Shown here piece after piece: positions 8,777 to 24,001 of a DNA stretch of 64,000 nt. Below the pieces are notes generated by a model that was not told the origin of the DNA, did no database searches, and was given only the letters and a program-made list of their open reading frames with translations. The number at the start of each line of letters is the position of its first letter. The first letter of the stretch is position 1. This DNA comes from Streptomyces canus. GTDB lineage: Bacteria > Actinomycetota > Actinomycetes > Streptomycetales > Streptomycetaceae. Made by a program: the position numbers and the translations under genes. Location of the stretch: NCBI RefSeq assembly GCF_041435015.1, contig NZ_CP107989.1, positions 1,860,001 through 1,924,000 of the forward strand, written 5' to 3'.

Positions 8777-10117
8777 GTGTCCGTCCCCGCCGAAGCCGTC
8801 GGGCAGCCGAAGAAGGCGGCGACCGCCGCCTGGATCGGCAGCGCCCTGGAGTACTACGACTTCTTCATCTACGGCAGTGCCGCAGCCCTGATCTTCCCGA
8901 AGGTGTTCTTCGACGAGTCCGACCCGGCCACCGCGACCCTGCTGTCGCTGGCCACGTTCGGTGTCGCCTACGCGGCCCGGCCGGTCGGCGCGCTCTTCCT
9001 CGGGCATTTCGGCGACCGGGTCGGCCGTAAGAAGATCATGGTCTTCACGCTGATTCTGATGGGCCTGTCGACGTTCCTCATCGGCTGTCTGCCGAGCCGC
9101 CACCAGGTCGGCACCCTCGCCCCGGTCCTGTTGGTCCTGTGCCGCGTCCTCCAGGGCATCTCCGCGGCCGGTGAGCAGGCCAGCGCCAACTCCATGAGCC
9201 TGGAACACGCGCCGGCGCACCGACGGGGCTTCTTCACGAGCTTCACGCTCAGCGGCACACAGGGCGGACAGCTGCTCGCCACACTGGTCTTCCTACCGGT
9301 CGCGGCGCTGCCCGAGGACCAGTTGCTGTCCTGGGGCTGGCGGGTGCCGTTCTGGCTGAGCGTGGCGGTCGCCGTGGTCGGCTTCGTCATCCGCCGCAAG
9401 CTGGACGAGACGCCGGCGTTCGAGCAGCAGGCCGCCTCCGAGGGTGTCCCGAAGCTTCCGCTGGTGGTCCTGCTGCGCGAGCACTGGGCCGATGTGCTCC
9501 GGGTGATCGGGGGCGCGCTGATCGCCTCGGTCTCCACGATCTTCACGGTGTGGGCGCTGGCGTACGCCACGAGCGACGCGGTCGGGATGAGCCGTTCCTC
9601 GATGCTGTGGGTGGGCGCGCTGGCCAACCTCGTCGCGCTCGCCGCGATCCCGCTGTGGGCCACGCTGTCGGACCGCATCGGCCGGCGTCCGGTCTTCCTG
9701 ATCGGCGCGGCGGGCAGCGCGGTGACGATGTTCCTCTACCTCTGGGCGATCTCCACGGGCAACTACCCGCTGACACTGCTGCTCGGCATCGTCGCCTTCG
9801 GCGTCGTCTACAGCGCCGCGAACGGGGTCTGGCCGTCCTTCTACGGCGAGATGTTCTCCACCAGGGTCCGGCTGTCGGGCATGGCGATCGGCACGCAGAT
9901 CGGTTTCGCGGTGGCCGGTTTCGCGGTCACCTTCGCGGCACGGATCGCGGGCCCCGACGGCACCGACTGGTCCTCGGTGGCGCTCTTCACCGCGGCCCTG
10001 TGCGTCCCCCCGTTGATCGCCGCCCTGACGGCCCGCGAGACCCACAAGGTCCCCACGGAGAACCTCGGCGAACGCTCCGGTCAGGAGGCGCCGCGCCCGG
10101 AGAAGGTGACGGCCTGA
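8777..10117 (+). CDS. MFS metabolite:H+ symporter (ShiA-like)
   Basis: A 446-residue, 12-helix transporter of the metabolite:H+ symporter family. The first helix has the family's GSALEYYDFFIYG signature, the helix 2-3 loop reads GHFGDRVGRKK, and the matching loop in the second half reads LSDRIGRRPV. Members transport shikimate, alpha-ketoglutarate, proline/betaine or citrate; the nearby shikimate/quinate dehydrogenase favours shikimate or quinate. It starts with GTG after an AGGAG ribosome site. A bidirectional hairpin follows. Confidence 0.88.
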   Translation: MSVPAEAVGQPKKAATAAWIGSALEYYDFFIYGSAAALIFPKVFFDESDPATATLLSLATFGVAYAARPVGALFLGHFGDRVGRKKIMVFTLILMGLSTFLIGCLPSRHQVGTLAPVLLVLCRVLQGISAAGEQASANSMSLEHAPAHRRGFFTSFTLSGTQGGQLLATLVFLPVAALPEDQLLSWGWRVPFWLSVAVAVVGFVIRRKLDETPAFEQQAASEGVPKLPLVVLLREHWADVLRVIGGALIASVSTIFTVWALAYATSDAVGMSRSSMLWVGALANLVALAAIPLWATLSDRIGRRPVFLIGAAGSAVTMFLYLWAISTGNYPLTLLLGIVAFGVVYSAANGVWPSFYGEMFSTRVRLSGMAIGTQIGFAVAGFAVTFAARIAGPDGTDWSSVALFTAALCVPPLIAALTARETHKVPTENLGERSGQEAPRPEKVTA

Positions 10118-12699: not shown

Positions 12700-12717
12700 G
12701 CGACCCGGGTCGCCTAG
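12696..12717. terminator. Perfect 22-bp palindrome containing both convergent stop codons
   Basis: CTAGGCGACCC/GGGTCGCCTAG is a perfect palindrome. The TAG of the serine hydrolase (12697-12699) and the TAG of the convergent saccharopine-dehydrogenase-like gene (12714-12716) are its two arms. It is probably a compact bidirectional terminator. Confidence 0.7.
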
Positions 12718-13868
12718 TGATCGACCCGGAGCGTGAAGTGGACGCCGTCGCGGGCGAGTTCGCCCAGCCACTGCTCGGACCGGGCCGCCGTCTCCGCCGC
12801 CCGGTTCAGACCTGCCGGGAGGGAGCCGTCCAGGATGTGACCGATGCCGAGGGCGAGGGTGCGGGAGACACAGCGGGCCATGGCGCTGTCCTGCTCGTCG
12901 CCCACCAGGTCGAGGAGGTAGCCGCCGGACCAGGTGCGGCCGTCGTGCGCGCGTACGTCGAGGGAGACGGCGAGGACGACCCGGTCGCGGTCGGCGTCCG
13001 TCGTCGGGTACCTGGCCGCCAGTTCCTGGGCCAGGGCGGCGATCCGGGTGTCGTCGCCGGTCCTCAGCTCCTCGAAGACCGGCTCCCAGGCGCGCAGCCA
13101 GCCGTCCAGCCGCAGGGTCCCGCGCACGAAGGTCCGCGGTGTCCAGGCGGCCGGCAGTCCGTACTGCTCGACGAAGGGGACGCTGTCGCGGTTGGGGTAG
13201 ACCTCGAAGGTCTCGCCGTCCACGACATGGCGCCGGGTCGCCTCCCAGGGGCGGTCGGCGATGGTCGGGGTGCCGTTGTCGAGGTAACGGGCGGGCGAGC
13301 GCAAGGCGTTCAGGACTCCGGCGGGGGCCCAGCTGAAGCGGTACCTGAAGTCGTTCGGGACGGCGGGGACACCTCCGCAGTAGGAGGTGAGGGCGTACGA
13401 CGCCGGTGTCGCGTCACCGATCACACCGCGGGCCCGGGCGACCAGGCTGTGCGCGAAGAGGTGGTCGATGCCCGGGTCGAGGCCCGCCTCTGTGAGGACG
13501 ACGATCCCGGCCTTCTGCGCCTCCGGCACGTGTTCGAGGACGGCGTCGGACACATAGCTGGAGCAGGCGAAGTGGGCCTTTTCGCGTACGCAGGCGGCGA
13601 GGATCCCGGCGTGTTCGGGCGCGGGCAGCATCGACACGACGACGTCCCCCGGCGCCAGCGCGGCCGCGAGCGCGGACAGCGTGTAGGCGCGCGGCTCGGC
13701 CCGTCCGGTGAGCCCCAGTGCCGCGAGGGCCTCGGCGGCACGCTCCTCGGTGCGGTGCCACAGGCGGACCCGGTCGGCGGTGTCGCACAGCTCGGCCAGG
13801 CCGCTACCGGTGGAGAGCCCGGCGCCGATCCAGTGGACGGTGCCGGTCGCGGGAACCAGGTCAGACAC
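12714..13868 (-). CDS. Saccharopine dehydrogenase family protein (Lys9-like)
   Basis: A 384-residue protein with an N-terminal nucleotide-binding fold (VHWIGAGLSTGSGL) and a C-terminal saccharopine-dehydrogenase domain recognisable from GLDPGIDHLFAHSL, which carries family residues, and SYCGGVPAV. Such enzymes act on saccharopine or related imino-linked amino acids. The GTG start at 13868 overlaps the stop of the upstream gene by eight bases. With the Lys1-like gene before it, the pair resembles the two halves of a saccharopine route of lysine metabolism, but direction and substrate are inferred. Confidence 0.75.
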   Translation of the reverse strand: MSDLVPATGTVHWIGAGLSTGSGLAELCDTADRVRLWHRTEERAAEALAALGLTGRAEPRAYTLSALAAALAPGDVVVSMLPAPEHAGILAACVREKAHFACSSYVSDAVLEHVPEAQKAGIVVLTEAGLDPGIDHLFAHSLVARARGVIGDATPASYALTSYCGGVPAVPNDFRYRFSWAPAGVLNALRSPARYLDNGTPTIADRPWEATRRHVVDGETFEVYPNRDSVPFVEQYGLPAAWTPRTFVRGTLRLDGWLRAWEPVFEELRTGDDTRIAALAQELAARYPTTDADRDRVVLAVSLDVRAHDGRTWSGGYLLDLVGDEQDSAMARCVSRTLALGIGHILDGSLPAGLNRAAETAARSEQWLGELARDGVHFTLRVDH

Positions 13869-14925
13869 GGCGGAACTCCCCTTCGTCGATGCCGAGTTCA
13901 CGGCACGCCTGATGGAGCCGGTCCAGACAGCGCCCCCAGGGGCCGCCGACCCCGAACGCCGGCAGCAGGGGCAGCAGGGCCGCCGAGAAGTCGACGCTGG
14001 ACTCCTCCGGGAGCAGGGACGGCAGGTTGTCGATGGCGATCAGGTCGAGCGGGGGCTCCTTGTGCAGCCGGCGGACGGGCTCGGCCCACTCGGTGACGCG
14101 GTCGTAGACCGGCAGGACGTTCAGGGGTGATCCCACGTCGCAGGTGACGTCGGAGAGGGTGCGCAACCGGCGGGTCGGGTCGTCCAGGTCCGCCTCACGG
14201 ACGAAGGGCGGGACGGGAGTGGTGGCGAGGACGCAGTTCACGAGCAGGTCGTGGGCGAGCAGGGCGGGGCGGTCCAGGTTGCGGGTCTCCTCGAGGTCCC
14301 AGCAGGCCGGTTCGACCCCGGCGGCCCGGAGCGCGACGCGTGCGCCCCGGCCGCTGCGGCCCAGGGCCCCGATCACCAGCGCCCTGAACTCCTCGTCCCC
14401 GGCGACGGGCCGCAGGGCCTCCGTCAGCTCCTCCTGCGAGGTGGGTGTGAGGGGCGCGGACAGCCTGCCCCGGTGCTGGAGCACGGCCAGGGCCGCACCC
14501 AGGTAGCCGGCCCAGTAGCCGAAGGCGGCGAGCCTGCGGCCGTGGTCGTCGACCAGGTACTCCAGGTCGAGGAGCGCCCCTCCCCCGGCGGCGAACCGGC
14601 GCAGCAGTTCCGGGGCGCCCGGCTGCTCCTTGTAGGCGTGCCCGAAGAAGACGTGCCGGTGCGGCAGGGCGGCGGGCTCGTCGGGGAGTTCCTTCAGGCC
14701 TACGACCACGGCATCCAGCGGCGCCCGGGACGCCCACGAACCGGCGGGCGCGACTCCGCAGCCGGCCGCCTCGTACTCCTCGATCGGGAAGATCCGTTGC
14801 GGGGACTCCTCGACGGTCAGCGTCACCCCGCCGTCGACGAGCCGCCGGGCGTCGGACGGCACGACGGGCGTGCGTCGCTCGGTGGAACGGACCTCGTGGC
14901 GCAGCCACAGATGGAGCTCGGTCAT
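13861..14925 (-). CDS. Saccharopine dehydrogenase (lysine-forming)-like, AlaDH/PNT fold
   Basis: A 354-residue relative of NAD+-dependent, L-lysine-forming saccharopine dehydrogenase (Lys1). The N-terminal half has the alanine dehydrogenase/transhydrogenase pattern with LRHEVRSTERRTPVVPSDA and FPIEEYEAAGC, and the second half has a Rossmann core (ALVIGALGRSGRGARVAL) near residue 180. Start and stop both overlap neighbouring genes, so it is the middle of a tightly coupled three-gene unit after the FAD oxidoreductase. Lys1-type chemistry joins lysine and 2-oxoglutarate or the reverse. Confidence 0.78.
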   Translation of the reverse strand: MTELHLWLRHEVRSTERRTPVVPSDARRLVDGGVTLTVEESPQRIFPIEEYEAAGCGVAPAGSWASRAPLDAVVVGLKELPDEPAALPHRHVFFGHAYKEQPGAPELLRRFAAGGGALLDLEYLVDDHGRRLAAFGYWAGYLGAALAVLQHRGRLSAPLTPTSQEELTEALRPVAGDEEFRALVIGALGRSGRGARVALRAAGVEPACWDLEETRNLDRPALLAHDLLVNCVLATTPVPPFVREADLDDPTRRLRTLSDVTCDVGSPLNVLPVYDRVTEWAEPVRRLHKEPPLDLIAIDNLPSLLPEESSVDFSAALLPLLPAFGVGGPWGRCLDRLHQACRELGIDEGEFRRV

Positions 14926-16070
14926 ACGCGGTTGGCCTCCGGGCGCGGGGCGTCGGCCGCGAACCGGCCGGCGCTGAGCGGGCTGATGTCCACGAAGGGT
15001 ACGCGGCCGAGGTACAGGTCGCGGACGACCTCGCCGACGGCCGGTCCCTGGAGGAAACCGTGGCCGGAGAAGCCGGTCGCGTACAGGAAGCGGGACACCG
15101 AAGTGGCCTCGCCGATCAGGGCGTTGTGGTCCGGGGTGAGCTCGTACAGGCCGGCCCAGCCGCCGGTGCGGCGCAGGTCGAGGAGGGCGGGGGCGCGATG
15201 AGTCATGGCCTCGGCGAGGCGGGGGATCCAGCGGTCGTGGGTGGCGGTGTCGAAGCCGGGTGTCTCGTCGGGGTCGGACATGCCGAGGAGGAGGCCGGGG
15301 CCCTCGGCGTGGAAGTAGAGGCTGCTGGTGAAGTCGATGGTCATGGGGAGGTCGGGCGGCAGCCCCTCGACCGGTTCGGTGACCGCGATCTGGCGGCGCA
15401 GCGGCTCGACCGGCAGGTCCACGCCGACCATCGCGCCGACGGCCCGCGACCAGGCGCCGGCCGCGCAGATCACCGTGTCGGTGGCGATCCGGCCCCTGCT
15501 CGTCACGACGCCCGTGATGTCGTCGCCGCGCAGGTCGATGCCGGTGACCTGGGTGTGCCGCAGGATCGTCGCACCGTGGCGGCGGGCGTCGGCGGCGTAG
15601 CCGTACACGACGGACTCGGGGGTGCAGTGGCCGTCCTCGGGTGAGAAGGCGGCGGCGAGCAGGCCGTCGGTGGTGATGAGGGGGGACAGCCGGCGCGCCT
15701 CGGCCGGGTCGGTCATGCGGCTCGGGACGCCGAGGGAGTTCTGGAGGCGCACGCTCTCCTCGAAAGAGGTGACCTCCTCCGGGCTCGACAGGAGGAACAG
15801 ATAGCCGACCCGGTGCAGCCCGATGTCCTGCCCCGTCTCCTCCTCGAAGCGGCCGAACGCCTCCAGGCTGCGCGCCCCGAGCCGGATGTTGAGCTCGTCG
15901 GAGAACTGCGCCCGCACCCCGCCCGCGGCCTTCGAGGTGGAGCCGGAGGCGAGGTCGTCGCGCTCGACGAGCACCACGTCCCGTACGCCCGCGCGCGCCA
16001 GGTGGCGGGCGATGCTCGTGCCCATGACTCCGCCGCCGATCACGACGACGTCGGCCGTGTCCGTGCTCAC
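14922..16070 (-). CDS. FAD-dependent amino-acid/sarcosine oxidase-like oxidoreductase (DAO family)
   Basis: A 382-residue flavoprotein. The FAD dinucleotide fold VVIGGGVMGTSIARHLA is at residues about 9-25, followed by LVERDDLASGSTSKAAGG; the C-terminal DAO motif is GFSGHGFLQGPAVGE. It resembles the beta subunit of sarcosine oxidase, pipecolate oxidase and L-amino-acid dehydrogenases. Beside the Lys1- and Lys9-like enzymes a role in oxidising a cyclic or secondary amine such as pipecolate is plausible. The gene overlaps the next by four bases and follows an ornithine cyclodeaminase remnant. Confidence 0.85.
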   Translation of the reverse strand: MSTDTADVVVIGGGVMGTSIARHLARAGVRDVVLVERDDLASGSTSKAAGGVRAQFSDELNIRLGARSLEAFGRFEEETGQDIGLHRVGYLFLLSSPEEVTSFEESVRLQNSLGVPSRMTDPAEARRLSPLITTDGLLAAAFSPEDGHCTPESVVYGYAADARRHGATILRHTQVTGIDLRGDDITGVVTSRGRIATDTVICAAGAWSRAVGAMVGVDLPVEPLRRQIAVTEPVEGLPPDLPMTIDFTSSLYFHAEGPGLLLGMSDPDETPGFDTATHDRWIPRLAEAMTHRAPALLDLRRTGGWAGLYELTPDHNALIGEATSVSRFLYATGFSGHGFLQGPAVGEVVRDLYLGRVPFVDISPLSAGRFAADAPRPEANRV

Positions 16071-16549: not shown

Positions 16550-17209
16550 TCAGGACAGGTGGGCCACCGCGTCCAGGTGGGGCAGGACGTGGTCCAGCCG
16601 CTCCCGCTTGGTGCGCAGATAGGTGATGTTGCTCTCGCACGGCGTGATGAGCAGCGGTACCGTCTCGGCGACCTTGATGCCGTGCCGCAGCAGCGCCTCA
16701 CGCTTGCGCGGATTGTTGGACATCAGGCGGACCGAGTTCACGCCCAGGTCGTGGAATATCCCGGCGGCGACACCGTAGTCCCGGGAGTCGACCGGCAGAC
16801 CGAGCGCGAGGTTGGCCTCGACGGTGTCCAGACCCTCCGCCTGGAGCGCCATCGCCCGCAGCTTGGCGAGCAGTCCGATGCCCCGGCCCTCGTGGCCCCG
16901 CAGGTAGACGACGATGCCGCTGCCCTCCTTGACCACGGCCCGCAGCGCGGCATCCAGCTGGTCGCCGCACTCGCAGTGCTGGGAGCCGAACGCGTCACCG
17001 GTCAGGCATTCCGAATGCAACCGGACGAGGACGTCGTCCGAGCCGATGTCACCGTAGACCAGGGCGACCTGTTCGTCACCGCGGTCGTGATCGAGGTATC
17101 CGACCGCCTGGAATTTCCCGTACACGGTGGGCAGCGGGGCATTCACCACGCGTTCCACGCCGGTGCGCTGTGGTGCCTTCTTGCCGAGGACGCCAACTTT
17201 ATCTGTCAT
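16550..17209 (-). CDS. ribA: GTP cyclohydrolase II paralogue with Met120 (FAPy-forming type)
   Basis: A 219-residue, stand-alone GTP cyclohydrolase II. Zinc ligands are the cysteines of HSECLTGDAFGSQHCECG (residues 66-82), and LRGHEGRGIGL holds the catalytic Arg region. At residue 120 it has Met (KLRAMALQ) where E. coli RibA has Tyr105 (KIRAYALQ). In S. coelicolor SCO6655 the same Tyr-to-Met change was shown to make the enzyme open GTP but retain the formyl group, giving FAPy instead of the riboflavin precursor APy. It is divergent, 38 bp away, from a creatininase-family gene. A role outside riboflavin synthesis is therefore likely. Confidence 0.93.
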   Translation of the reverse strand: MTDKVGVLGKKAPQRTGVERVVNAPLPTVYGKFQAVGYLDHDRGDEQVALVYGDIGSDDVLVRLHSECLTGDAFGSQHCECGDQLDAALRAVVKEGSGIVVYLRGHEGRGIGLLAKLRAMALQAEGLDTVEANLALGLPVDSRDYGVAAGIFHDLGVNSVRLMSNNPRKREALLRHGIKVAETVPLLITPCESNITYLRTKRERLDHVLPHLDAVAHLS

Positions 17210-17247
17210 GATCTGTTTCCTAAGCAGAGACGAAAGGCCGTGAAAAG

Positions 17248-18000
17248 ATGAGCGGTTCGGGAATACGGTCGGCGGCGTACGGTCTGGTGCCGACGGACAC
17301 TACGGAAGACGTACGGACGCGGGGGGCGGGCGTCTCAACGCAGGTCGCCGTCCTTCCGGTCGGAAGCTTCGAACAACACGGTGCGTACCTTCCCCTGGCG
17401 ACCGACACGCTCGTCGCCTGTGCCGTCGCGCGGGAGATCGCCGCGGCGTACCCGGTGCACCTCCTCCCCCCGGTGACGATCTCCTGCTCGCACGAGCACG
17501 CGGCCTGGCCGGGGACCGTCAGCATCTCCTCCGTCACCCTTCATGCGGTGGTACGGGACATCGCTGCCTCGCTGCGCCGCTCGGGCGTCGAGGCGCTGGT
17601 CGTGGTCAACGGACACGGCGGCAACTACGTGCTGGGCAATGTCGTCCAGGAGGCCTCCGCTCGCGGGGAGCGGATGGCGCTCTTCCCGGCAGCGGAGGAC
17701 TGGGAGGCCGCCCGTCTGGAGGCCGGGGTGGTCACCTCGCTGCTCACCGACATGCACGCGGGGGAAATCGAGACCTCCATTCTTCTGCACACCGATCCGG
17801 AATGTGTCCGATCCGGTTACGAGACCTCCGATTTCGTCGCGGACGACCGTCGTCATCTCCTCACCCTCGGTATGTCCGGTTACACCGATTCCGGTGTCAT
17901 CGGGCGCCCTTCACTGGGCTCGGCGGAAAAGGGCAAAGCCTTGCTGGAGAGCCTCGCGGCGTCCTTCGGTGCGTATTTCTCGACGCTCACCGGGGAGTAG
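17248..18000 (+). CDS. Creatininase-family amidohydrolase, candidate FAPy deformylase
   Basis: A 250-residue metal-dependent amidohydrolase of the creatininase family. Likely metal ligands are Glu42, His44 and Asp53 in SFEQHGAYLPLATDT, with further conserved NGHGGNY near residue 124 and DMHAGEIETS near 169. The family contains creatininase, MftE of mycofactocin synthesis and the archaeal ArfB, which removes the formyl group from FAPy monophosphate. Being divergent from a FAPy-forming RibA, an ArfB-like deformylase role is a strong hypothesis. Its last 121 bp overlap the convergent flippase gene, an unusually long antisense overlap. Confidence 0.88.
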   Translation: MSGSGIRSAAYGLVPTDTTEDVRTRGAGVSTQVAVLPVGSFEQHGAYLPLATDTLVACAVAREIAAAYPVHLLPPVTISCSHEHAAWPGTVSISSVTLHAVVRDIAASLRRSGVEALVVVNGHGGNYVLGNVVQEASARGERMALFPAAEDWEAARLEAGVVTSLLTDMHAGEIETSILLHTDPECVRSGYETSDFVADDRRHLLTLGMSGYTDSGVIGRPSLGSAEKGKALLESLAASFGAYFSTLTGE

Positions 18001-19406
18001 CGGTTCGCCGGGCGCAGACCCTGGTACCAGCGGACGACCAGGACGACCGCGCCCGGCAGGCTCGCCACGAAGCTGAGGACGCCGTACACGACGGCGGTCG
18101 CGAGACCGGCGCCGGCGCCGAGGCCCATGGCGGCGAACGCCCAGGCGGTGACGCCCTCCCGGGGGCCGAACCCGCCGACGTTCAGGGGCAGTCCCATGGC
18201 GAGCAGCGCGAGCACGGCCAGGGGCAGCAGTTCGGCCACGGAGGCGTCGGAGCCCGCGATGCGGGCGGCGAGCACGAACATCCCGAGGTGGCCGGCGAGG
18301 ACGACGGCCGAAGAGAGCGCGACGCCGGGCCAGTTGCGGCGGGACAGCAGTCCCTCGCGGGCCTCGGCGAGGGTCGCGCGCAGGAGCCGGCCACGGCGGG
18401 AGGAAGGGGTCCGGTTCATCCGCAGGGCCACGACGACGGCGAGGGCGCCCAGGGCGGCGAGGCCGACGGCGGGGGCGAGGTGGCGGGCCTCGCCCAGCAC
18501 CGGGGACTCCATGGTGAGCAGCACGGCACCGCCGACGACCGCCAACGCGATCTGTCCGGCGACCCGTTCGAGGACGACCGCCCGTACACCGCGGCCCATG
18601 TCACCGGTGCTCTGCCCGTGCCGCACCGCGCGGTGCACATCGCCGAGGACACCGCCGGGCAGGGCCGCGTTCAGGAACAGGGCACGGTAGTAGTCGGCCA
18701 CGGCCTCGCCGAGCGGCAGCCGGATGCGCAGCCCGCGGGCCACCAACTGCCAACGCCAGGCGCTGAACACGGTGGTCAGCACGCCGATCACGAGCGCCGC
18801 CAGCAGTGCTAGGCCGTCGATCCGGCGCAGCCCGTCCAGGAAGACGCCGGTGCCGAGGCGCCACAACAGGACCGCGAGGATGGTGACGCCCGCGACGGTG
18901 CCGATGTGGGTGCGCAGGGCGCGGGAGTTGAGGACTCCTCGCAGCGCGGAACGCCACCGGGGGGTCTGAGCGGTCCCGGGCCGTGCCGCGGTCACGATCA
19001 CGCCGATCCGGTCCCGGGAGACGGCGGCGTCGGTCAGGTCCGCGACGGACTCTCCCGTTGCCTCCAGGATCCGGGCCCTGGCCACGAGCGCCTCGGCCCG
19101 CGCCGTGAGCACCTCGTCGCGCGTCTGGACGACTTCGGCCCGGAGCGTGAGGGCCCGTTGGGAGAGGGTGCCCGGCTCGGGCGTCTCCGCGGGTCGCCGG
19201 ACGGGCAGCCGCGCCGTGCCGTGGCCGGTGCCCTGGCCAGTGCTGCGGACCGGGAGGCTCGCCCTGCTCCGGTCGGAGCTACGGACCGGGAGGGCCCTCC
19301 GCTCGCCCGCCCCGGCGTCGTCGCCGCGCGTCGAGTGGTCCTCCTCCCGGCGTCCGGTGCGCTCCGCACGCCGCCCGGTGTCCGGCCGCACCGTCTCCAG
19401 GCTCAT
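17880..19406 (-). CDS. Lysylphosphatidylglycerol synthetase-like integral membrane protein (UPF0104/flippase domain)
   Basis: A 508-residue protein with a basic, low-complexity cytoplasmic N-terminus of about 165 residues (repeated LPVRS motifs and an alpha-helical stretch of ALVARARIL type), followed by eight or so membrane segments. The membrane part has the UPF0104 signatures LNAALPGGVLGDVHRAVRHG and LPLNVGGFGPREG. Related domains flip lipids across the membrane in MprF or accompany glycolipid genes. It ends a four-gene overlapping operon after the methyltransferase. Function is probably export or flipping of a lipid-linked product. Confidence 0.82.
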   Translation of the reverse strand: MSLETVRPDTGRRAERTGRREEDHSTRGDDAGAGERRALPVRSSDRSRASLPVRSTGQGTGHGTARLPVRRPAETPEPGTLSQRALTLRAEVVQTRDEVLTARAEALVARARILEATGESVADLTDAAVSRDRIGVIVTAARPGTAQTPRWRSALRGVLNSRALRTHIGTVAGVTILAVLLWRLGTGVFLDGLRRIDGLALLAALVIGVLTTVFSAWRWQLVARGLRIRLPLGEAVADYYRALFLNAALPGGVLGDVHRAVRHGQSTGDMGRGVRAVVLERVAGQIALAVVGGAVLLTMESPVLGEARHLAPAVGLAALGALAVVVALRMNRTPSSRRGRLLRATLAEAREGLLSRRNWPGVALSSAVVLAGHLGMFVLAARIAGSDASVAELLPLAVLALLAMGLPLNVGGFGPREGVTAWAFAAMGLGAGAGLATAVVYGVLSFVASLPGAVVLVVRWYQGLRPANRYSPVSVEKYAPKDAARLSSKALPFSAEPSEGRPMTPESV

Positions 19407-20406
19407 GACGCTCCGCCCGTCGGCCGGCACAGCGCCAGCAGGTCGCTGTGGTGGACGACGACCTTCAACTCGCCCGCGCGGCAGGCCTCCAGGCGGTCCC
19501 GGAGGTAGCGCTCGGCGGGCTCCTTCAGCTCGGGGCGCTCCTCGACGGCCGCGCCGACCCAGCCGCGCAGCCACTGGGCGGTGAGCGCGGACTCGGCGGG
19601 TCCGAGGCGCCAGGCGCTCGGGTGCAGCCGTACCGTCGCGCCCCGTTCGGAGAACGCCTCGCAGGCGACGGTGACGGCGTCCGGGCCGAGCAGTCCGCCG
19701 CGCCGCTGGTGGGCGTTGAACGCGTCGGCGATCTCGTCGTCCAGCGGGTCGGACGGGGTGAGTTCGACGCGGCCCGCCACGGACAGGGTGAGCAGGGCCG
19801 GGCAGCCGGCGCCCGTGCAGGCCGTGGCGAGGGTCTCGATCTCCTCGCGGGTGAGGACGTCGAGGAGCGCGGAGGCCGTCACCAGGGAGGCACCTGCGAG
19901 GGCGTCCGGGGTGAGCAGGCCGACGTCGCCGCGGCGGGTCTCGACGGTGACCCGGCTGCCGTCGGCGGCGGAGCGCGGGGAGGCGACCGCCGCGAAGTGC
20001 AGGAGGTAGGGGTCCCGGTCGTGCAGGATCCAGTGCTGGGGGCCGTCCAGGCGGGGCGCCAGCCAGCGGCCCATCGAGCCGGTACCGCAGCCCAGGTCGT
20101 GGATGACGAGGCCGGCCTTGCCCGGTAGGTTCGCCAGGCGGATCCGCAGCGGGTCGATCAGATCGCCCGCCCGCGCGGCCGCATCGGGCCCCTCCCGAAG
20201 CTCGAGCCACTCGGGGGCATAACGCGGAGCGTCGTCGGGACCCGCGTCCCTGAGCCGTACGGTGGGACGCTCGCCGGGGTGGGTGCTGGGACCGGCCCCG
20301 GGGATGACCGATTCCGCGTCGGAAGGAACTCCGGGCCTCACCGACGCCACCTCTCGCGGCCCCGGCTGTGCCGGGATCTTCCCGCTCTGCTTGATCGCCG
20401 TCTTCC

Positions 20407-20410
<4 letters not shown>
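19403..20410 (-). CDS. SAM-dependent methyltransferase
   Basis: A 335-residue class I methyltransferase. Motif I is VIHDLGCGTGSMG near residue 100, followed by an acidic residue at the end of strand 2 (ILHDRDPY) and a DVLTREEIE segment near 180. The first 80 residues are Pro/Gly-rich and probably disordered. It overlaps its neighbours by four bases on both sides, so it belongs to the PTPS-glycosyltransferase-flippase operon. Substrate is unknown; in this context it could methylate a glycosylated pterin- or pyrimidine-like intermediate. Confidence 0.85.
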
Positions 20411-22097
<1,687 letters not shown>

Positions 22098-22102
22098 TCA
22101 GG

Positions 22103-23083
22103 TCAGGCGCTCTTGCCGTACCTCACGAGGTGACAGAGGGCCGGAATTTCCCCACGGGCCAGCTTCGGCATCACCTCGGGGAGTTCCTCGAACGCGCTTT
22201 CCCCCGTGATGAGGGCGTCGAGCGCCGGATCGGCAAGCAGCTTCAGCGCGAGGGCGAGCCGGTCGCCGAAGCTACGGTTGCCGCGCGCCGGGGACACGGT
22301 GCCGACCTGGCTGCTGCGGATGACGAGCCGCCGGGAGTGGAAGGCCTCGCCGAGCGGGAGGGCGACCTTGCGGTCGCCGTACCAGCTCAGTTCGAGGACC
22401 GTGCCCTCGGCGCTGAGGAGTTCCAGGGAGCGGGCCAGGCCCTGTTCGGTGGCGCTGGCGTGGACGACCAGGTCGCAGTCGCCGAGGGCGTCCGCGGGGG
22501 ACGCGAAGCCGACACCGAGGGCCTCGGCGGTCTTGGCGCGGGCGGGGTCGGCGTCCACCAACTGGACCCGGACGCCGGGAAAGCGGGCCAGCAGCGCGGC
22601 GACCGAGCAGCCGACCATGCCGCCGCCGACCACCGCGATCCGGTCGCCGATCAGGGGGGCCGCGTCCCAGAGGGCGTTCACGGCGGTCTCGACCGTGCCG
22701 GCGAGGACGGCCCGTGCGGCGGGCACGTCGTCCGGTACGACCGTCACGGCGCTCGCGGGAACTACGTACCGCGTCTGATGCGGGTACAGACAGAAGACGG
22801 TCCTGCCCTTCACCGCGGCAGGGCCCTCCTCCACCACTCCGACGCTGAGGTAGCCGTACTTCACCGGTCCCGGGAAGTCGCCCTCCTGGAACGGTGCCCG
22901 CATGGTCGCGTACTGGCTCTCGGGCACCCCGCCGCGGAACACGAGTGTCTCCGTGCCCCTGCTGACTCCTGAGTACAGCGAGCGGACCAGCACCTCGTCC
23001 TCACGCGGGGCCGGAAGGGTGACCTCCCGTATCTCGCCCTCGCCCGGAGAGCGGAGCCAGAACGCGCGTGCGGCGGCCTTCAT
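22103..23083 (-). CDS. Medium-chain dehydrogenase/reductase, zinc-free type
   Basis: A 326-residue MDR-family enzyme. It has the GroES-like N-domain and a nucleotide fold at [18 protein letters not shown] near residue 148. The usual catalytic-zinc Cys is replaced: the segment reads [15 protein letters not shown], as in BchC-like and other zinc-less members. The acidic residue ending strand 2 (LVDADPARA) favours NAD(H). It precedes the PTPS-like gene by 116 bp on the same strand and is divergent from the phosphatidyltransferase gene. Likely an oxidation or reduction step of the same pathway; substrate unknown. Confidence 0.82.
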
Positions 23084-23203
23084 CGAGAACCTCCTGAACG
23101 ATCGGGAACCCGGGCACGTACCTCGTCACGTACCGAGATGTGCACAGGCCGCGCACAGTACGCGGCCTTGATCGACTCTGTCATCTGGCCGGAGGAATGT
23201 GCG

Positions 23204-24001
23204 GTGGCCCTGAACAACACTTACGAAGCAAGGCTGGTCCAGCAGGAGACCGCTGTGGGAGCGGGTCTGCAGATCCTGTTGCTGGCCCTGCTCGGCACGG
23301 CGATAGGCATGGGGCCCGCGGGCTGGCTGACCGGCCTCGCCTTCGCCGTCGCCACCTGGGCCGTGCTCTCCAGGGCGTTGCACCGCACCCGGCCTCGCTC
23401 CTTCGGACCGGCCAACCGCGTGACCCTCGGCCGGGCGACCCTCGTCGGCGGAGTGACCGCGCTGGTCGCGGACTCCTTCCAGGACTCCCCGCCGGTGACG
23501 CTGTTCGTGGGCCTGACCGCGGTGGCCCTGATCCTCGACGGCGTCGACGGCAAGGTCGCCCGCGCCACGGGCACCTCGACCCCGCTGGGCGCGCGCTTCG
23601 ACATGGAGGTCGACGCGTTCCTGATCCTGGTGCTCAGTGTGTACGTCTCGATGTCGCAGGGTCCGTGGGTCCTGCTGATCGGCGCCATGCGCTACGGCTT
23701 CGTCGCCGCGGCCCGTGTCTGGAACTGGCTGAACGCCCCCCTGCCGCCGAGCATGGCCCGCAAGACGGTGGCCGCACTCCAGGGGATCCTGCTGCTCGTG
23801 GCCGCGTCCGGGTACCTGCCGTACGCGGCGACCTTCGGGGTCGTGGCCGTCGCTCTGGGGACGCTGGTCTGGTCGTTCGGCCGGGACATCCTGTGGCTGT
23901 GGCGCACGCACCGGGCGGACCAGGCGGCGGTGGGCGAGTTGCTGGCGTTGGAGTTCGCGGCGGTGGAGCGGGAACGGGAGCCGGAGGCGGTGGCCTCCTG
24001 A
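23204..24001 (+). CDS. CDP-alcohol phosphatidyltransferase
   Basis: A 265-residue membrane enzyme. The CDP-alcohol phosphotransferase signature D-x2-D-G-x2-A-R-x8-G-x3-D-x3-D is complete (LDGVDGKVAR ... GARFDMEVD, residues about 111-136), so it should be active. Several membrane helices flank it, including one at the N-terminus near residues 15-45. The GTG start has GGAGGA upstream. It is divergent from the dehydrogenase of the putative glycolipid cluster and could attach the head group or lipid anchor of that product. The acceptor is not predictable; it is shorter than and distinct from PgsA and PssA. Confidence 0.85.
   Translation: MALNNTYEARLVQQETAVGAGLQILLLALLGTAIGMGPAGWLTGLAFAVATWAVLSRALHRTRPRSFGPANRVTLGRATLVGGVTALVADSFQDSPPVTLFVGLTAVALILDGVDGKVARATGTSTPLGARFDMEVDAFLILVLSVYVSMSQGPWVLLIGAMRYGFVAAARVWNWLNAPLPPSMARKTVAALQGILLLVAASGYLPYAATFGVVAVALGTLVWSFGRDILWLWRTHRADQAAVGELLALEFAAVEREREPEAVAS

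Follow-up and report, generated by a model that had tools for sequence, protein, structure and literature searches.

A conserved Streptomyces canus gene cluster pairing a Tyr-less GTP cyclohydrolase II with a creatininase-family hydrolase: a candidate GTP-derived pathway

Introduction

What might a GTP cyclohydrolase II (GCHII) that carries Met in place of an otherwise telling Tyr be doing back to back with a creatininase-family hydrolase, beside a row of genes for a pterin-enzyme relative, an oxidoreductase, a glycosyltransferase and a methyltransferase? The question is raised by eight genes at positions 16550-24001 of a 64,000-nucleotide stretch of Streptomyces canus DNA (contig NZ_CP107989.1, positions 1,860,001 to 1,924,000), which we call the window. 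An earlier note on this DNA had proposed that GTP is opened here to the formylated pyrimidine FAPy, deformylated by a relative of archaeal ArfB, and then glycosylated, methylated, lipid-linked and flipped. Open reading frames and a profile search of the window proteins recovered all eight genes in the places and families that the note had given them. We assign a probability of roughly 0.65 to the reading that the eight genes would form one dedicated GTP-derived pathway, opening via FAPy and continuing with deformylation and decoration.

Results

Tyr loss in GTP cyclohydrolase II and the creatininase gene

The GCHII gene (16550-17209, minus strand; SCO6655-type) encodes a protein that matches PF00925 with 220 bits (cut-off 23) and keeps the three zinc cysteines in a 31-row alignment. 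Alignment to the Escherichia coli enzyme 2bz0 placed its Met120 (codon 16850-16852) opposite Tyr105, just as the earlier note had read it, so that Tyr is absent from this position. Tyr at this site is tied to the diaminopyrimidine APy as the GCHII product, and a Tyr-to-Met change reportedly makes S. coelicolor SCO6655 stop at FAPy (Bandarian group). Elsewhere in the 10.68-Mb window genome there are two more GCHII matches, both with Tyr.

The divergent creatininase-family hydrolase noticed earlier, a candidate FAPy formamidase, is encoded on the opposite strand (17248-18000, plus strand; PF02633, 209 bits), between the flippase-like and GCHII genes and 38 bp from the latter. It carries the family pattern (ExH, D, H, HAGExET), and E42, H44, D53, H123 and E175, which we take to be metal ligands, are invariant in five aligned sequences. 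The MftE, creatininase, IolN and ArfB models all matched below their cut-offs, ArfB with 38 bits (cut-off 180), and no BrbF model was among the matches; an AlphaFold model had a predicted local distance difference test score (pLDDT) of 52, too low for use. The gene is the opposite-strand neighbour of GCHII, at a distance of no more than 255 bp, in 61 of 61 Streptomyces loci.

If a GCHII no longer deformylates, it should come with a deformylase, and this consequence of the FAPy idea was tested as Tyr/CREATININASE covariation. Of 95 cluster GCHIIs, 74 lacked Tyr, and all 74 were accompanied by a creatininase gene, which lay within the fetched stretch for 73 and about 10 kb away for one; the 21 that keep Tyr (14 actinobacterial, 7 alphaproteobacterial) had no creatininase gene (0/21) and all had a RibD reductase (21/21), which was also found beside 10 of the 74. 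Every one of the 61 Streptomyces cluster GCHIIs, window included, has Met and a creatininase gene. In the other actinobacteria, the 13 non-Tyr enzymes show L, H, M or Q at the site, and for 12 of them the locus itself contains creatininase. The thirteenth (L177, Leu) was considered as an exception without creatininase and rejected as such, the gene being found about 10 kb away. The covariation supports the idea that these GCHIIs may stop at FAPy.

A tree built from 53 of the 95 cluster sequences, with two housekeeping GCHIIs added, places the cluster enzymes in several separate parts. Outside the window, the window genome holds a Tyr-type GCHII gene and, on the other strand at a distance of about 0.7 kb, a RibD_C gene (G000:C1:5413907-5415773), and this stand-alone GCHII is, by the tree, a relative of the type found in RibD-bearing clusters. 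Since the two genes form a pair apart from the cluster, they may have been recruited into clusters together, as one unit. In S. coelicolor, predicted riboflavin flux correlates negatively with the expression of SCO6655 (r -0.61) and of the other GCHII, SCO2687 (r -0.52), according to PMC2853524.

GTP cyclohydrolase III in haloarchaeal loci

In four haloarchaeal loci from two genera (three alike in Haloarcula, one in Natrarchaeobaculum), a gene for GTP cyclohydrolase III (GCH III) overlaps that of the medium-chain dehydrogenase/reductase (MDR) enzyme by 4-8 bp. The L182 protein was identified by PF05165 (276 bits) and by a score over the NCBIfam cut-off, the other three by annotation and tblastn. 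A tblastn search gave no match to the 6-pyruvoyltetrahydropterin synthase (PTPS) protein in the Natrarchaeobaculum locus, and creatininase was present in two other, near-identical Haloarcula loci. GCH III makes FAPy as its product, as stated in the portion of PMC9478397 available. With GCH III in the slot next to MDR and GCHIIs scattered on the tree, this slot has been filled more than once by GTP-opening enzymes of different origin, and the haloarchaeal line thus lends a second, separate support to a putative FAPy start.

Distribution, linkage and gene order

Because every locus was found via PTPS or MDR, whichever of the two was used is present by selection; detection was by single-query tblastn, which may miss divergent methyltransferase, flippase-like or CDP-alcohol transferase genes. 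The Streptomyces set comprised one stretch from each of 66 other PTPS-IV genomes (L197-L262) and two second copies (L180, L263), a locus counting as uncut with at least 7 kb of flank; Proteobacteria and Halobacteria were sampled on plasmids only.

PTPS-IV occurs in 67 of 150 Streptomyces genomes, window genome included. Ten of the 66 loci were left out as cut by contig ends, and the remaining 56 all hold MDR, PTPS, glycosyltransferase, methyltransferase, flippase-like, CDP-alcohol transferase, GCHII and creatininase genes (56/56), with RibD in 9; this grouping is more than chance, and it answers the check across Streptomyces that the earlier note had proposed. One of the ten, L262 in G085, showed MDR, PTPS and a weak RibD match only. 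Cluster-type GCHII (E <= 1e-78) was likewise found in 67 of the 150 genomes: together with PTPS-IV in 66, neither in 82, and one alone in 2 (PTPS-IV only in G085). An assembly of about 1,420 contigs, G102, carries a Met-type GCHII gene, creatininase and part of a flippase gene on one contig of 3.3 kb. Creatininase (E <= 1e-40) was detected in 79 genomes: 66 of the 67 with PTPS-IV, G102, and 12 with a separate paralogue, which at the one locus where neighbours were read (L268:9584-11507) adjoins a frame resembling a helix-turn-helix regulator.

Across a class-wide sample, PTPS-IV (E <= 1e-26) was present in 57 of 394 genomes; 38 places in 37 genomes outside the genus and one more gave 39 loci, 28 of them uncut. 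These 28 held MDR (28), PTPS (28), glycosyltransferase (28), methyltransferase (22), flippase-like (24), CDP-alcohol transferase (24), GCHII (20), RibD (13) and creatininase (10) genes. Plasmid loci were taken from 11 of 12 proteobacterial and 10 of 12 haloarchaeal records (9 uncut), the three omitted being second records of species already taken. The 11 proteobacterial loci contained MDR (11), PTPS (11), methyltransferase (11), glycosyltransferase (10), RibD (10), GCHII (7), CDP-alcohol transferase (7), flippase-like (6) and creatininase (0) genes; the 9 uncut haloarchaeal loci contained MDR (9), PTPS (8), methyltransferase (8), CDP-alcohol transferase (6), glycosyltransferase (5), GCH III (4) and creatininase (2), and a flippase-like gene was detected by tblastn in 0/9. 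Four actinobacterial plasmid loci had GCHII, creatininase and RibD in two each.

Gene order was scored for pairs with both genes detected, a pair counting as conserved when its genes lay no more than 3.5 kb apart, in the given order and on one strand. MDR preceded PTPS in 67/67 Streptomyces, 36/37 other actinobacterial, 11/11 proteobacterial and 9/9 haloarchaeal pairs; PTPS preceded the glycosyltransferase in 66/66, 37/37, 9/10 and 5/5, and the glycosyltransferase preceded the methyltransferase in 64/64, 23/28, 9/10 and 5/5, respectively. The series MDR, PTPS, GT4 glycosyltransferase and methyltransferase therefore recurs, mostly in order, across actinobacteria, proteobacteria and haloarchaea. 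The objection foreseen in the earlier note, that homologues might be unlinked in other genomes, fails, as linkage spans three phyla.

PTPS-IV protein

The window PTPS (21588-21986, minus strand, TTG start) matches PF01242 with 82 bits and is a close counterpart of S. coelicolor SCO6650 (PDB 3d7j, E 1.8e-79), which bears out the QueD/PTPS-like label given to it before. It contains FGPAQ, the PTPS-IV signature in the text available of PMC5445326. FGPAQ is present in 121 of 135 PTPS frames, and those without it are all nine haloarchaeal frames and five more, part of which are truncated or divergent. The residue survey covered 120 bacterial cluster frames, 118 of them readable at the zinc site, with six stand-alone paralogue frames excluded. 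H14 and H28 are kept in 118/118, position 30 is Ala in 117 and Val in 1, and Glu120 is conserved in 120/120; the haloarchaeal proteins have His at position 30 in all eight readable of nine frames. In the window protein, HGA stands for HGH, Gly22 and Ala24 lie where the catalytic Cys is expected, and Glu120 is present, so that neither the three zinc His nor the catalytic Cys of a PTPS/QueD enzyme is complete. With zinc site and Cys lost, bacterial PTPS-IV would hardly be a normal PTPS, yet the presumed ring-binding Glu is retained. SCO6650 is said by the Bandarian group to lack both zinc and PTPS activity.

A queuosine role was rejected, the QueD model giving 37 bits against a cut-off of 89 and the QueD motif being absent. 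Stand-alone Streptomyces paralogues of PTPS-IV occur on plasmids or as second copies in L118, L139, L140, L180 and L263 (~position 10000); their loci gave no MDR, GT4 or methyltransferase match, and cupin and MBL-fold genes are found close to those on annotated plasmids.

Remaining genes and neighbours

MDR, PTPS, GT4, methyltransferase and flippase-like genes form a row on the minus strand, followed on the same strand by GCHII. Stop/start overlaps of 4 bp join PTPS to GT4 (21588-21591), GT4 to the methyltransferase (20407-20410) and the methyltransferase to the flippase-like gene (19403-19406), in keeping with the overlapping operon described before. The flippase-like and creatininase genes are convergent, their 3' ends overlapping by 121 bp (17880-18000), and the CDP-alcohol transferase gene is divergent from MDR.

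The MDR-superfamily protein (22103-23083, minus strand) is weakly BchC-like (TIGR01202, 48 bits; cut-off 291). SGVSRGTET and KYGYLSVG stand, by sequence reading, at the places of the Cys and GHE motifs, which we take to be hallmarks of zinc alcohol dehydrogenases, and the zinc ligands of such enzymes are therefore missing. Both motifs are replaced in the MDR variants listed, which cover 71 and 85 of 129 sequences; some Cys occurs in the first block of 8/129, in five of them as TLCSG. Beyond it lies the CDP-alcohol phosphatidyltransferase gene (23138-24001, plus strand; PF01066, 53 bits), whose product reads DGxxDGxxAR...GxxxDxxxD, presumably the motif of such transferases; a zinc-free MDR enzyme and a CDP-alcohol phosphatidyltransferase thus adjoin the operon, as had been described. 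The GT4 glycosyltransferase (20407-21591, minus strand; PF00534, 104 bits) has as nearest solved relatives 3c4q/3c48, predicted glycosyltransferases, and 7qsg, a D-inositol 3-phosphate glycosyltransferase. The methyltransferase (19403-20410, minus strand) is a class I S-adenosylmethionine-dependent type that fits no curated subfamily (PF13649, 24 bits, below the cut-off of 27); its AlphaFold model (pLDDT 70) matches class I methyltransferases in a fold from which the substrate is not readable. The flippase-like membrane protein (17880-19406, minus strand; UPF0104/LPG_synthase_TM) matches PF03706 with 118 bits. SCO6652 is tabulated in a transcriptome study of mycelial stages (PMC3610822).

Saccharopine-dehydrogenase-like and DAO-family oxidase genes adjoin the cluster at 12714-16070 of the window and are not in the conserved set scored. 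A gene annotated cytochrome b lies beside RibD in rhizobial and Thiodictyon clusters (L116:13055-13582, L138:13011-13544, L187:14024-14563, L114:12528-13085); the L116 protein matches PF01292 (cytochrome b561-type), and a seven-locus group shares the family. Sulfatase-annotated or DUF3604 genes occur near alphaproteobacterial clusters (L116:3472-5115, L115:14843-17260), the L116 protein of this set having no Pfam match at the limit used. Several further groups from the recurrent-neighbour search look like antisense frames or unrelated genes.

Discussion

Given the established identity, linkage and order of these genes, and the established covariation of Tyr loss with creatininase, we propose the following route. 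The Tyr-to-Met GCHII would open GTP and halt at FAPy, and the creatininase-family protein would strip the formyl group to give APy, two steps that we infer from the families and from precedent; other lineages would reach APy via a Tyr-bearing GCHII or begin with FAPy from archaeal GCH III. The RibD_C reductase without a deaminase domain, carried by many other lineages and some Streptomyces clusters, may turn the ribosyl group into a ribityl chain by reduction. PTPS-IV, which lacks the zinc site and the Cys but retains the Glu expected at a 2-amino-4-oxo ring, may bind the ring and help to reshape the ring or its side chain; the MDR enzyme would oxidise or reduce a carbon of the side chain or sugar, GT4 would glycosylate and the methyltransferase would methylate the molecule. 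Coupling of the product to a phospho-alcohol or lipid, and its transfer across the membrane, would probably fall to the CDP-alcohol transferase and flippase-like protein. All that comes after deformylation (glycosylation, methylation, lipid linkage, flipping), together with the product, we only infer. Quite tentatively, the product could belong to a further class of GTP-derived cofactor or metabolite, set apart from riboflavin, F420, folate-type pterins, molybdopterin and 7-deazaguanines and common to actinobacteria, proteobacteria and haloarchaea. It could be a diaminopyrimidine or ribityl-pterin that is glycosylated and methylated, and it might be anchored in the membrane and redox-active; a hint of electron transfer comes from the cytochrome b561-type gene by RibD in rhizobia and from a gene annotated cytochrome b in Thiodictyon.

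Several findings weigh against the FAPy pathway. Tyr loss is one change on the tree and creatininase gain or loss one change, on the same branch (99/85), so that the covariation amounts to one evolutionary event, and an independent-pairs test had only one pair and hence no statistic. GCHII and creatininase lie at opposite cluster ends in 11 of 13 non-Streptomyces cases, adjacent in one and about 10 kb apart in one. The hydrolase is nearer the mycofactocin MftE model (127 bits) than archaeal ArfB, both below cut-off. The creatininase paralogue (56-62% identity) lies away from other cluster genes in 12/150 Streptomyces; GCHII was detected in 11 of these 12 genomes and every readable site is Tyr, which tells against a strict bond of this hydrolase group with FAPy. 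No GTP cyclohydrolase was found within the fetched flanks of 8/28 other actinobacterial, 4/11 proteobacterial and 5/9 haloarchaeal uncut loci, RibD is absent from 47/56 uncut Streptomyces loci, the window genome has no match (E <= 1e-10) to the cluster RibD among its RibD_C proteins (15 other matches present), and GT4 went undetected by tblastn in 4/9 uncut haloarchaeal loci.

The single branch, the likeness to MftE, the paralogues in genomes whose readable GCHIIs are all Tyr-type and the usual separation of the two genes outside Streptomyces would all suit a hydrolase acting on another amide of the pathway, with Tyr loss as neutral drift in one duplicated lineage. We consider this unlikely, because the site varies among four residues (M, L, H or Q) but is never Tyr in the 74 sequences of that clade, which argues for function, all 31 aligned rows retain the zinc cysteines, and the two genes are opposite-strand neighbours throughout the 61 Streptomyces loci. 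There is also a bacterial precedent: BrbF of Sinorhizobium, annotated as creatininase, was shown biochemically to free formate from FAPy (PMC9478397, in the text available). The first interpretation is thus supported in part: the 74/74 and 0/21 counts, the GCH III loci and BrbF speak for a conserved dedicated pathway with a split GTP opening.

Alternatively, the genes could serve a membrane glycophospholipid pathway, GCHII and creatininase merely supplying a precursor used elsewhere. Four of the eight (GT4, CDP-alcohol transferase, flippase-like and methyltransferase) suit lipid or polysaccharide work, and the MDR-PTPS-glycosyltransferase-methyltransferase core does occur in some loci free of any GTP cyclohydrolase. 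But MDR and PTPS persist, partly by selection, where lipid genes do not (haloarchaeal flippase-like 0/9, CDP-alcohol transferase 6/9), and one and the same slot holds GTP-opening enzymes of different origin, which together make this alternative distinctly improbable.

That the cluster feeds ordinary riboflavin or F420 biosynthesis is very improbable: GCHII and RibD families are present, and PTPS-IV has been assigned to archaeal F420 on unpublished data (PMC5041015, in its available text), but none of the three RibD proteins scanned has a deaminase domain, the plasmid gene-table rows listed include neither lumazine synthase nor riboflavin synthase, two Tyr-type GCHIIs lie elsewhere in the window genome, and the F420 marker TIGR03551 matches 150/150 Streptomyces (147 over cut-off) against 67/150 for PTPS-IV, a phylogenetic profile that stops short of archaea and on which an F420 role of PTPS-IV in Streptomyces was rejected as unlikely.

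If the FAPy pathway holds, nearly half of Streptomyces, with relatives in other phyla and archaea, would make a GTP-derived molecule that lacks a description in the literature searched, and PTPS-IV, a large group often annotated as a queuosine enzyme, would gain a function. Among known systems, pterin glycoside pathways join a GTP-derived ring to a glycosyltransferase, like the window cluster, but they employ GTP cyclohydrolase I together with a functional PTPS. The S. coelicolor SCO6650/SCO6655 region is close in kind, SCO6650 with its solved structure being the counterpart of the window PTPS; to our knowledge, the work of the Bandarian group on it gives no product, cross-phylum comparison or Tyr/creatininase survey. 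The claim that such a cluster has no described product stands as far as the product goes, none having been found in the open-licence literature, and has to yield for the neighbourhood itself, which is partly published: AGeNNT reported 561 PTPS-IV sequences with PF00925 and PF01872 nearby (PMC5445326). AGeNNT calls the PF00925 enzyme GTP cyclohydrolase I/FolE2, whereas here it is GCHII, and its text, in the portion available, makes no mention of GT4, MDR, methyltransferase, creatininase, GCH III or an active-site link (PMC5445326). Similar in proposed chemistry are archaeal ArfA/ArfB and bacterial BrbF, where likewise one enzyme makes FAPy and a second deformylates it; those systems serve riboflavin, in the available text of PMC9478397, whereas the window pair, likened to BrbF by family annotation, sits with PTPS-IV, MDR, GT4 and a methyltransferase.

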